Positions 2,867 to 34,200 of a DNA stretch of 48,800 nt are shown here, one piece after another. Under the pieces are notes generated by a model that saw only the letters and a program-made list of their open reading frames with translations, was not told the origin of the DNA and did no database searches. The position numbers were made by a program, and so were the translations under genes. The stretch is from Dehalococcoidia bacterium (GTDB taxonomy: Bacteria; Chloroflexota; Dehalococcoidia; CAUJGQ01), in NCBI GenBank assembly GCA_035310145.1, contig DATGEL010000114.1, positions 1 through 48,800 of the forward strand. Reading direction: 5' to 3'. Position 1 is the first letter of the stretch; every line of letters starts with the position of its first letter.

Positions 2867-3595
2867 TTAGCCGAACCCCAGCCGCTTGCGCACATTCATG
2901 CGCTTGAGCTGCTGGATAGCGTAGGTCGGCTCCACGCCCTTCGGGCAAACCTCGGTGCAGTTAAAGATGGTGTGGCAGCGCCAGATGCCGGCCTCGTCGC
3001 CGACGAGGTTCAACCGCTCCGTGCGGCCGTCGTCGCGCGGATCGTTGGCGAAACGGTATGCCTTCGCCAGCGCGGCCGGGCCGAGATAGTCGTCATCGGT
3101 GGCCACGATTGGACAGGAAGAGTAGCAGGCGCCGCACTGGATGCAGGCGCCGAACTGCTGCAGGTGCGTCGTGCGCTCGTCGCTCATCCGGAACTCTTTT
3201 TCCGGCAGCTCGCGCGTTGCGGCGTGGATGATGTGGGGCGAAATTGCCCGGTACTTGTCGAAGAAGGGCTTCAGATCGACGGCCAGGTCTTTGAGCACGG
3301 GCAGATTCGCCAGCGGCTCGATGCGCAACTCGCCACCGTTGTCGCCGATCACCTCGGCCACGCGCGTCATGCAGGTCAGCCGCTCGCGGTCATTGACGCG
3401 CATCGGGCAGGAGCCGCAGATGCCCTGCCGGCAGGAACGACGGAAGGTCAGCGAGCCGTCCTGAAACTCCTTGATCGCCACGAGTGTATCGAGGATCGTC
3501 GTCGCCGTCACATATTCGACGGTGAAATCCTGATGGTGGGGCTCTGCATCCCGCTGCGGATCGTAGCGCAGCACCTTCACCTGGACCTGCGCCAT
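2867..3595 (-). CDS. sdhB: Succinate dehydrogenase iron-sulfur subunit
   Basis: A 242-residue SdhB that carries electrons from FAD to quinone through three clusters. The [2Fe-2S] ligands are Cys55, Cys60, Cys63 and Cys75 (CRQGICGSC). The [4Fe-4S] motif CIQCGACYSSCP is at 151-162, and Cys207, Cys213 and Cys217 (CTEVCPKG) complete the [4Fe-4S]/[3Fe-4S] sites. Length is normal for the family. The ATG at 3595 has GGAGAG upstream. The gene lies 52 nt after sdhA and 44 nt before sdhC. It is the ordinary SdhB type, unlike the second iron-sulfur subunit at 5959-6741. Confidence 0.96.
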   Translation of the reverse strand: MAQVQVKVLRYDPQRDAEPHHQDFTVEYVTATTILDTLVAIKEFQDGSLTFRRSCRQGICGSCPMRVNDRERLTCMTRVAEVIGDNGGELRIEPLANLPVLKDLAVDLKPFFDKYRAISPHIIHAATRELPEKEFRMSDERTTHLQQFGACIQCGACYSSCPIVATDDDYLGPAALAKAYRFANDPRDDGRTERLNLVGDEAGIWRCHTIFNCTEVCPKGVEPTYAIQQLKRMNVRKRLGFG

Positions 3596-3647
3596 GGTCG
3601 AACTCTCCGTTGCGCCGGCCGTGGGCCGGCAGGCTCCGCGCCGCAGG

Positions 3648-5342
3648 TTAGTATTTGCGCTCTTCCGGCTGGTAGTGTGTCACGGTCACCGGGCCGTACG
3701 CCAGGCGCGGGCCGCCCTCGCCCAGGTAGGCGAGCGTGTGCTTCATCCAGTTTTCGTCGTCCCGCTTGTCGAAGTCGAGGCGTGAATGGGCCCCGCGGCT
3801 CTCCTTGCGCGCGATCGCGCCCAGGCAGATGATCTCGGCCTGCTCCAGCATGTTTTCGAGCTCAACTGCGCCCAGCAGATCGGTGTTAAAGATGGCGCCC
3901 TTGTCGTCGATCGGCGCCTGCTGCACGCGCTCCTGCAGCTCCTTGATCTTCTCCAGCGCCCGCTGCATGCGTTCCGGCGTGCGGAAGACGCCCATACCCT
4001 CCGCCATGGCGATGCCCTGCTCGTTGCGAATCGTCGCGAGCTTCTGGCCGCCCGTGCGACCGACGTAGCCCTTGATCCGCTCCTCTTCGCTCGTCAACCA
4101 GGAGTCGGAGAATGTCTGATAGGCGGTCGACCGCGCATACTCGGCGGCGCGCTCGGCGGCGACGCGGCCAAAGATCAGCGTGTCGAGCAGCGAGTTCGCG
4201 CCGAGCCGGTTGGCGCCGTGCACGGAGACACAGGCGCACTCGCCCGCGGCATAGAGGCCGTGGATCTCCGTTTCGGCGTAGCGGTTGGTGCGGATGCCGC
4301 CCATGGTGTAGTGCTGGCCGGGCCGCACCGGCACCGGCTCGTGCACCGGATCGATGCCGAGAAACGCCTCGCACAGCTCGCGCGTGCTCGGCAGCTTATG
4401 CATGATCTTCGCTTCGCCGAGGTGCGTAATATCGAGCAGCACGCAACCATCGATGCCTCGCCCTTCCAGCACCTCGATCGTCTCGGCGCGGGAGACAAGG
4501 TCATGCGGGCCAAGCTCCATCTTTTCCGGCGCGTAGTTGGCCATGAAACGCTCGCCCAGTGCGTTGCGCAGGTAGCCGCCCTCGCCGCGGTTCGCCTCGG
4601 TCAGCAGCACACCGTTGGACTTCAGCGTGGTCGGGTGGAACTGCACGAACTCCATATCGCCCAGCGGCGCGCCGGCCTGATAGGCCAGGGACATGCCGTC
4701 GCCGGTGCAGCTCCAGGCGTTGGTCGTGCGGCCGTGGTAGATGCGGCCGTTGCCGCCCGTCGCCATGATTACGGTCTTCGCCTGGATCACGTTCAGGCCG
4801 CCGTTGATCACGTCCCAGGCGACGACGCCCTTGCAGACGCCGTCCTCCACGATCAGCCGCGTGACGAACCACTCCTCGTACACGCTGATGCCGCGGGCGG
4901 TGAGTTGCTCGTAGAGCGTGTTCAGCAGCGCGTGACCGGTGATGTCGTGCACGAAGGCCGTGCGTGGGCGGACGGCTCCGCCGAAGGCGCGGATATCGAG
5001 ATCGCCCGCCTTGTCACGGTTGAACAGGGTGCCGGCATGCTCCAGCCAGTAGACCTCCGCCGGCGCCTCTTCGCACATGAACTCGATCGCATCCTGGTCC
5101 CCGATGTAGTCGCTGCCCTTGACCGTGTCGAAGGCGTGGTCCTCCCACCTGTCCTCCGGCGTGAGCGCCGCGTTGATCCCGCCCTCGGCCGCGCCGGAGT
5201 GGCTGCGCAGCGGGTGGACCTTGCTGAGCACGGCGACGTTGATCTTTGGGATCTCGGCCGCCCGCACCGCGGCACGCATGCCGGCGAGGCCGGCGCCGAT
5301 CACGAGGATGTCGTGCTGCAACACCCTTAACCCTCCGCTCAT
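3648..5342 (-). CDS. sdhA: Succinate dehydrogenase flavoprotein subunit
   Basis: A 564-residue flavoprotein that oxidises succinate to fumarate (or the reverse). The FAD-binding GAGLAG is at 16-21, and His48 in RSHSGAAEGG is the expected covalent FAD site. FHPTT, GGYLRN and HTLAY are family motifs of the substrate site and C-terminal domain. The ATG at 5342 overlaps the stop codon of the upstream cupin gene (ATGA), which suggests coupled translation. A GTG at 5324 has a better SD (GGAGGG just upstream) and would remove six residues, so either start is possible. It belongs to the four-gene sdhABCD set. Confidence 0.95.
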   Translation of the reverse strand: MSGGLRVLQHDILVIGAGLAGMRAAVRAAEIPKINVAVLSKVHPLRSHSGAAEGGINAALTPEDRWEDHAFDTVKGSDYIGDQDAIEFMCEEAPAEVYWLEHAGTLFNRDKAGDLDIRAFGGAVRPRTAFVHDITGHALLNTLYEQLTARGISVYEEWFVTRLIVEDGVCKGVVAWDVINGGLNVIQAKTVIMATGGNGRIYHGRTTNAWSCTGDGMSLAYQAGAPLGDMEFVQFHPTTLKSNGVLLTEANRGEGGYLRNALGERFMANYAPEKMELGPHDLVSRAETIEVLEGRGIDGCVLLDITHLGEAKIMHKLPSTRELCEAFLGIDPVHEPVPVRPGQHYTMGGIRTNRYAETEIHGLYAAGECACVSVHGANRLGANSLLDTLIFGRVAAERAAEYARSTAYQTFSDSWLTSEEERIKGYVGRTGGQKLATIRNEQGIAMAEGMGVFRTPERMQRALEKIKELQERVQQAPIDDKGAIFNTDLLGAVELENMLEQAEIICLGAIARKESRGAHSRLDFDKRDDENWMKHTLAYLGEGGPRLAYGPVTVTHYQPEERKY

Positions 5343-32898: not shown

Positions 32899-33255
32899 TT
32901 ATCCGGTCGGCGTATCAGTGGTCGGAGACGCCGGCTCCCAGGCTTCGCCGTAGCAACGCATGGCGATGAGGACGGGCACAAACGCCTTGCCCTTCTCCGT
33001 CAGCGTGTACTCGGCGCGCGGCGGGTGTTCGCGGTAGAACACCCGCGTGACCATACCGCGCGCCTCAAGACGCTTCAGTCGGTCAGAGAGCACGTTCGCG
33101 GAGATGCCGTCGAGCGACACCAGCAGGGCGGAGAAGCGCCGGCGACCCCATGAAAGGTCGCGCAGGATGAGCATGGTCCAGCGGTCGCCAACAACGTCGA
33201 GCGTGCGGGCGACCGGGCAGTACTGTTGGGTTTCGTAGCTGCGTGTCTCGGACAG
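32899..33255 (-). CDS. HxlR-family transcriptional regulator (start codon uncertain)
   Basis: A winged-helix regulator. The conserved HxlR N-terminus, YCPVARTLDVVGDRWTMLILRDL, is encoded without interruption up to at least position 33222, yet the first ATG (33174) lies inside it, at its middle. Upstream to the in-frame stop near 33312 there is no ATG, GTG or TTG; a CTG at 33255 follows GGCGGAAGG, and would give 118 residues, a normal length. I list the CTG start as the better guess. The DNA-binding helix is in ANVLSDRLKRLEARGMV. Its promoter and that of the divergent crotonase overlap an inverted repeat. A sequencing error or truncated gene is possible. Confidence 0.78.
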   Translation of the reverse strand: MSETRSYETQQYCPVARTLDVVGDRWTMLILRDLSWGRRRFSALLVSLDGISANVLSDRLKRLEARGMVTRVFYREHPPRAEYTLTEKGKAFVPVLIAMRCYGEAWEPASPTTDTPTG

Positions 33256-33288
33256 CCTTCCGCCCCCGAACCGAACTACATTAACTTT

Positions 33289-33317
33289 CTGATACTGACT
33301 TGATCTTCGTCAATCAA
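33289..33317 (-). promoter_or_regulatory. Promoter of the HxlR gene
   Basis: On the minus strand TTGATT (33317-33312) is followed after 17 nt by TATCAG (33294-33289), four of six -10 matches. Transcription would start near 33282, about 27 nt from the CTG at 33255. The region is much more AT-rich than its surroundings and overlaps the inverted repeat 33298-33319. Confidence 0.5.
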
Positions 33318-33319
33318 GT
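33298..33319. promoter_or_regulatory. 22-bp inverted repeat, probable HxlR operator
   Basis: ACTTGAT and ATCAAGT form perfect 7-bp arms around an 8-bp spacer. They cover the -35 box of both divergent promoters. Binding of the adjacent HxlR protein here would repress itself and the crotonase gene, the arrangement common for HxlR regulators. Confidence 0.55.
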
Positions 33320-33328
33320 GAGTAATAA
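33300..33328 (+). promoter_or_regulatory. Promoter of the first crotonase gene
   Basis: TTGATC (33300-33305) is followed after 17 nt by TAATAA (33323-33328) in an AT-rich stretch. Transcription would start near 33335, about 70 nt before the ATG at 33406. The -35 lies within the presumed operator. Confidence 0.45.
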
Positions 33329-33405
33329 ATCATAGAGTGAGTAGCGATATCTCAAGTCTGTGGCCCGGCCATGGCCGGTCGCGGAAGCGCCAGGAGGAGT
33401 AGCCG

Positions 33406-34200
33406 ATGACCACCGTGGAAGCGCCGGCCGTGCAGTTCGACGTCAGCGCGGGTGTGGCGACGATCACGCTCAACCGGCCCGAGCAGCTCAACGCGATCAA
33501 CGCCGAGCTGGGCGCGGGACTGATGGAGGCGTTGCGCCAGGTGCGGACTCGCGACGATATCCGCGTGGCGATTCTCACCGGCAATGGGCGCGCCTTCTGC
33601 GCCGGGGCAGACCTGCGCAGCCGGGCCGGCGGGCCGGCCGCAGCGGGCGGGGTAGCCGGTCTGTTCCGGACGGACGACGCGGTCGGCTTCCACGAGTTCG
33701 AACCGAAGAAGCCGATCATCGGCGCGGTCAACGGCTACTGCCTGGGCGGCGGCTTCGAGATCGCGCTCTCCTGCGACCTGCTGATCGCCAGTGAGGCCGC
33801 GCAGTTCGGGCTGCCGGAGATCACGCTCGGCTTCTTCCCCCTGGCGGGGGCGCCGGTGACCCTCCCGCGCTCGATCCCTCGCGTGCTGGCCAATGACCTG
33901 CTCTTCACCGGCGAACGCATTCCCGCCGCGACTGCCTACGCCTTCGGGCTGGTGAGCCGGATTGTGCCGCCCGATGAGCTTCTGCCGACAGCACGGGCCA
34001 TGGCCGAGAAGATCGCCGGTTACGCCCCGCTGGCGGTGCGGGCGATGCACGAGCTCGTGCGGCGGCAGGGGAACATGCCGCTCGGCGAGGCGCTCCGCCT
34101 GGCGAGCACCATGCGCTGGGCCATCGGCCAGACCGAGGACGCCAGGGAGGGTCCGCGGGCGTTTGCCGAGAAGCGTACACCGGTGTTTAAGGGCGAATAG
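33406..34200 (+). CDS. Enoyl-CoA hydratase (crotonase family)
   Basis: A 264-residue crotonase. The oxyanion-hole segments are GRAFCAGADL (61-70) and NGYCLGGGFE (109-118). Both Glu residues used for hydration are present: Glu118 (GGGFEIALSCD) and Glu138 (GLPEITLGFFP). It likely hydrates 2-enoyl-CoA in fatty or aromatic acid breakdown. The ATG at 33406 has CAGGAGGAG upstream. It is the first gene downstream of the HxlR-type operator and is followed, 54 nt on, by a second crotonase, so both probably share a promoter. Confidence 0.94.
   Translation: MTTVEAPAVQFDVSAGVATITLNRPEQLNAINAELGAGLMEALRQVRTRDDIRVAILTGNGRAFCAGADLRSRAGGPAAAGGVAGLFRTDDAVGFHEFEPKKPIIGAVNGYCLGGGFEIALSCDLLIASEAAQFGLPEITLGFFPLAGAPVTLPRSIPRVLANDLLFTGERIPAATAYAFGLVSRIVPPDELLPTARAMAEKIAGYAPLAVRAMHELVRRQGNMPLGEALRLASTMRWAIGQTEDAREGPRAFAEKRTPVFKGE

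Follow-up and report, generated by a model that had tools for sequence, protein, structure and literature searches.

Our analyses have identified, in a 48,800 nt stretch of DNA from a Dehalococcoidia bacterium (hereafter the window), an intact gene for an HxlR-type regulator which, on the comparison of its sequence with those of related genes, is very probably translated from a CUG codon at position 33255 of the minus strand. This start, among the rarest used by bacteria, is unusual and probably weak, and the regulator is probably autoregulated. Initiation at the CTG is favoured because orthologous genes have TTG or ATG at exactly the same place. The features that define the gene are the following:

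32899..33255, minus strand: gene for an HxlR-family winged-helix regulator, with 118 codons and a final TAA when read from the CTG (frame, PF01638 match, orthologous starts)
33253..33255, minus strand: CTG, very probable start codon (aligned codons in six orthologues: CTG, TTG, TTG, ATG, ATG and GTA, the last with an ATG two codons up)
33310..33312, minus strand: in-frame TGA closing the frame upstream (codon reading)
33172..33174, minus strand: first ATG of the frame, discarded as a start site (lies within the conserved domain; Shine-Dalgarno duplex only -1.9 kcal/mol)

The Reading Frame and Its Candidate Start Codons

HxlR-type regulators carry a conserved N-terminal CPVAR segment, with a Cys before helix 1. 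The first-pass annotation of this DNA had described an HxlR frame without an ordinary start codon above the ATG at 33174, a family motif continuing in frame above that ATG and an in-frame stop near 33312, and all of this is borne out by a codon-by-codon reading. The frame ends at TAA (32899-32901) and is open upstream to the TGA at 33310-33312; the 45 sense codons between this TGA and ATG 33174 include no ATG, GTG or TTG, the CTG at 33255-33253 is the sole NTG codon in this interval, and the motif YCPVARTLDVVGDRWT is present in frame upstream of the ATG. The product read from the CTG has 118 residues, and a start at ATG 33174 would cost 27 of them, the CPVAR segment and Cys13 included. A minimal start-stop (ATG-TAG) is also present on the minus strand at 33276-33281, 26 nt above the CTG, and is absent from the aligned orthologues.

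The Start Column in Orthologous Genes

Among 393 genomes of the class we found six close orthologues (L112, L113, L114, L115, L116, and L117), which share 71-76% identity with the window protein. One of these (L112, from genome G164) lies on the same contig (WHSU01000045.1) as L037 of the public Dehalococcoidia MAG Dino_bin15. The codon that aligns with the window CTG is CTG in L112, TTG in L113 and L115, and ATG in L116 and L117, while L114 has GTA there and an ATG two codons upstream; thus, with the window gene counted, six of seven genes have ATG, TTG or CTG in the column. In L115 (genome G186), an in-frame stop is found at residue -6 and no ordinary start other than the TTG at residue 1 occurs as far as residue 27, and therefore this protein must start at the TTG of the column. 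The first-pass annotation had offered three options (initiation at CTG 33255, an error in the assembly, decay of the start) and had suggested that the starts of orthologues be compared; the comparison clearly favours the first of these, as the CTG sits on the start column, is also found in a second genome (L112/L037), and is directly followed by codons under purifying selection (see below). Against the CTG reading stands the only ordinary upstream start of L112, a TTG located in frame 19 codons above its CTG, which could serve as the start of that gene. This TTG lies inside the TTGACGGACGTCAA dyad, and a comparable upstream TTG is present in L117 despite the ATG that this gene has in the column; we take both TTGs to belong to the operator.

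Extending the search to 400 genomes of the phylum revealed no orthologue closer than those in the class, and searches of the order (2 genomes), the family of G164 (44 genomes) and the family of G117 (38 genomes) revealed none beyond those from the class search. The viral collection contained no relative, and the HxlR proteins in plasmid records were all under 60% identity.

Coding Signal Around the CTG and Alternative Explanations

In comparisons of the window gene with L112, L113, L115, L116, L117, and L114, the pN/pS values for codons 2-27 are 0.32, 0.23, 0.27, 0.31, 0.13, and 0.27, respectively, similar to and no higher than those for codons 28-105 (0.29-0.47). Purifying selection acts on codons 2-27, all of which precede the first ATG. 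In the same frame above the CTG (aligned without gaps), pN/pS is 0.78-1.72 and stops are met in 3 of the 6 comparisons; an indel is located directly above the CTG in the orthologue alignment, and the third-position G+C of the window changes from 0.39 above the CTG to 0.81 below it. The pN/pS values and the step in third-position G+C therefore locate the start of translation at the CTG or in its immediate vicinity.

These results also bear on three other explanations. The first is that the start codon has been lost, so that a pseudogene is forming or only a short form is made from ATG 33174. That 33174 is the first ordinary start, and that CUG is described as a poor initiator (PMC11497404; this and the other papers cited by PMC number are cited from excerpts), would both accord with such decay, but we consider it very unlikely, since the frame is open throughout, codons 2-27 are no less constrained than the remainder of the gene, the CTG state is common to two genomes of different families, and ATG 33174, which is without a Shine-Dalgarno sequence (-1.9), would remove 27 conserved residues together with Cys13. 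Slightly less probable again is an assembly or base error, in which the C is a consensus mistake for the A, G or T of an ordinary start codon. The assembly consists of 148 contigs with 3.63% contamination and close kin have TTG, both of which would suit such an error; however, CTG also occupies this column in the separately assembled genome G164 (Dino_bin15), whose gene differs from that of the window at ~41% of the synonymous sites of codons 2-27, and it is improbable that the same error arose twice at one codon. The presence of the same CTG in this second genome thus makes both assembly error and decay unlikely. Entry into the frame by another route, either at a non-NTG codon higher up (AGG 33258) or by a frameshift from an upstream ATG such as that of the ATG-TAG at 33281, which lies 26 nt upstream in a different frame, is of similarly slight probability, as the ATG-TAG is missing in the aligned orthologues, the codons above the CTG are without coding selection, and kin already have ATG or TTG in the start column.

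Protein Family and Structural Relatives

The product read from CTG 33255 matches the Pfam HxlR family PF01638 (E 1.1e-25; 89.7 bits against a gathering cut-off of 20.8) over residues 21-108, which correspond to positions 1-88 of the 91 in the profile. Its scores for NCBIfam RrpB (73 bits) and RrpA (47.1 bits) are below the respective cut-offs of 175 and 185. The product also matches 16 distinct PDB sequences, the best of which align from residue 5-6; PA1607 (2f2e, E 1.3e-19) and YybR/HypR (4a5m, E 1.4e-17) resemble it over residues 5-106, and YodB (5hs7) and QsrR (4hqm) are further HxlR-family regulators with solved structures. The window gene differs from the genes for HypR, PA1607, YodB, and QsrR in its neighbouring gene and in its CTG start codon.

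Cys13, which is found in the window gene and in 6/6 close orthologues, is part of the window protein only if translation starts above ATG 33174. It aligns with position 14 of 4a5m, which we take to be the redox cysteine of HypR; a serine occupies this position in the companion entry 4a5n. At the position of the second redox cysteine of HypR (presumably residue 49) the window protein is without a cysteine. The window genome contains nine HxlR matches including this gene, the others being 38-57% identical to it, and thus has a sizeable set of paralogues.

Ribosome Binding and the Region Upstream of the CTG

The 16S RNA of the window genome ends in ...GGATCACCTCCTTTC, and matches to this anti-Shine-Dalgarno tail were sought at spacings of 4-10 nt from the start codon. 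One such match precedes the CTG:

33263..33267, minus strand: Shine-Dalgarno-like GGGGG, 7 nt before the CTG (pairs with the genome's own 16S tail at -9.2 kcal/mol)

The first-pass annotation had pointed to a purine-rich stretch ahead of the CTG. A GGAAGG does adjoin the codon, but at a spacing of 0, and the GGGGG at 33267-33263 with its spacing of 7 is the better placed of the two. The corresponding energies in the orthologues are -10.7 and -11.5 for the ATG genes, -9.8 for the other CTG gene, and -5.8 and -5.2 for the TTG genes, with no match in L114 (0.5) at spacing 4-10. A duplex as good as that in the window was found at 30 of 1500 CTGs sampled from the 2034 in the window, and it is thus only moderately unusual. 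The Shine-Dalgarno sequence and CUG of the window can pair in a predicted local hairpin (MFE -19.6 kcal/mol, z -1.67), which would weaken initiation further; such a hairpin is not predicted in L112, the other CTG gene. The earlier annotation had also presumed a promoter giving a 27 nt leader, a proposal that is unsupported because no sigma-70-like promoter passed a consensus scan of 33200-33420.

A Candidate Operator and a Divergent Neighbour

HxlR-type regulators bind as dimers to an inverted-repeat operator near their own gene. Two features on the upstream side of the window gene are of interest in this regard:

33298..33319, no strand: dyad ACTTGAT-N8-ATCAAGT, candidate operator between divergent genes (contains a TTGAC-N4-rTCAA box)
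33406..34200, plus strand: divergent enoyl-CoA hydratase/isomerase-like gene, likely target of the shared operator (ORF; synteny)

The dyad is the single match to ACTTGAT-N8-ATCAAGT in the window when up to 2 mismatches are allowed, against 0.14 expected. A generic palindrome score was significant in the window (6/300 shuffles) and at that level in 0 of the other 11 loci; the specific box TTGA-N6..8-TCAA was more telling, as it is present within 120 nt upstream at 8/66 HxlR loci of the class, 1/70 other loci and 6/3066 control slices, the 8 loci including L007 (the window) and L140 (the same gene as L112 and L037). Boxes resembling TTGAC-N4/5-GTCAA are found upstream of the HxlR genes of the window, L112/L140, L116, L120, L122, L123, L137, and L139, and represent a candidate family operator in this class.

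The divergent gene, which from its motifs we take to be enoyl-CoA hydratase/isomerase-like, has a counterpart of 80-85% identity in the same arrangement in 4 of the 6 close orthologues (L112, L113, L115, and L117); it is not kept in L116 and L114. Given this conserved neighbour, autorepression combined with control of the divergent gene would be the plain reading of the locus. In the mechanism that we infer for use of the CUG in vivo, the mRNA carries the G-rich Shine-Dalgarno-like sequence 7 nt upstream and initiator tRNA would decode CUG 33255 as fMet. The probable binding site of the regulator is the dyad at 33298-33319, from which it may repress both itself and the divergent enoyl-CoA hydratase-like gene, Cys13 probably senses oxidants or electrophiles, and the purpose of the weak CUG start may be that it would keep the autorepressor scarce.

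History of the CTG

In a tree based on HxlR only, the window gene and that of G164 are grouped weakly (72/54), whereas a tree of five species based on HxlR and its neighbour places G164 with the two TTG species (95/94); the two trees thus disagree on the grouping of G164. On the latter tree, a CTG common to the window, G164 and the ancestor of the TTG pair requires, by our own count, two changes, and separate origins require three. On either tree the CTG is common to genomes of different families. It is possible, although on balance doubtful, that CUG has been retained since before the window and G164 lineages (different families of the same class) split, that selection for very weak initiation has maintained it in a redox-sensing autorepressor, and that the TTG of the sister genus is derived from it.

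Known CUG Starts and Significance of the Window Gene

Within the excerpts considered here, the closest precedent is the rep gene of FIB plasmids (F, pO157, P307), which is reported to start at a CTG, as confirmed by mutation and with N-terminal analysis also reported (PMC11983097). Like the window gene, it combines a CTG start with an upstream Shine-Dalgarno sequence and low-level protein, the last of these a prediction in the window; the case made there is that selection maintains the CTG because it yields just enough expression, and that annotations err in putting the start downstream (PMC11983097). The two differ in that rep is a replication gene of E. coli plasmids, whereas the window gene is a chromosomal HxlR regulator in Dehalococcoidia for which the evidence is comparative.

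Other reports indicate that such starts are rare and, counting against the CTG reading, that CUG initiates poorly (PMC11497404, PMC4633059). Of nearly 85,000 genes, 20 are annotated with CTG, and expression from CTG is about tenfold below that from TTG (Hecht et al., 2017, as cited in PMC11983097). Switches to CUG are given for 2 of 61,358 reconstructed AUG starts and 1 of 2,468 UUG starts (PMC5622118), CTG is described as not enriched in mycobacterial selections (0.03%) and as ineffective when leaderless (PMC4633059), which disfavours a leaderless start for the window gene, and CUG complexes are reported to be less stable than those with AUG, GUG or UUG (PMC11497404). In Caulobacter dnaA, a predicted upstream CUG with a Shine-Dalgarno sequence gives toeprints in vitro and is reported as unused in vivo (PMC8443254), which by analogy is a caution for the window CTG. 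As CUG starts are both known and rare, the window gene represents a well-supported new case and not a new principle.

Gene finders restricted to ATG, GTG, and TTG starts would cut 27 residues from this protein or miss the gene, and the truncation loses the probable sensing cysteine and part of the conserved domain. The occurrence of ATG, TTG, and CTG at one orthologous site also provides a small natural series for the cost or benefit of weak initiation.

How Unusual the Gene Is

Among 137 distinct HxlR-containing loci (from 146, after removal of duplicates and of those that gave no match at E 1e-8), the ordinary start lying closest in frame above the CPVAR region is ATG in 80, GTG in 48, and TTG in 7, according to a nearest-start rule that is crude and can pick an internal codon. 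In the remaining 2 loci, the window gene and L015, the stretch from the upstream stop to the CPVAR region is devoid of ATG, GTG and TTG. Chance is thus an insufficient account of the missing ordinary start in the window gene. In L015 (G010:C67) the frame is broken by a stop immediately above the conserved domain, shortly before the match at locus 1501, and this is possibly a frameshift or a decayed gene. In L003, ATGs are found only at least 20 residues above the CPVAR region.

Conservation above the first ordinary start was also compared between 420,347 nt of the window genome and 373,551 nt of G164. Of the 57 non-overlapping ORFs with a match, only the HxlR ORF exhibits long and strong conservation in this region, with 21 of 27 residues identical. 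The runner-up (9/11 identical) is antisense to a permease-like frame, the case at 2869-3679 of the window (5/19 identical) has an ordinary ATG near its start, and two further cases have 5 to 8 identical residues (L155, 8/24; L156, 5/13).
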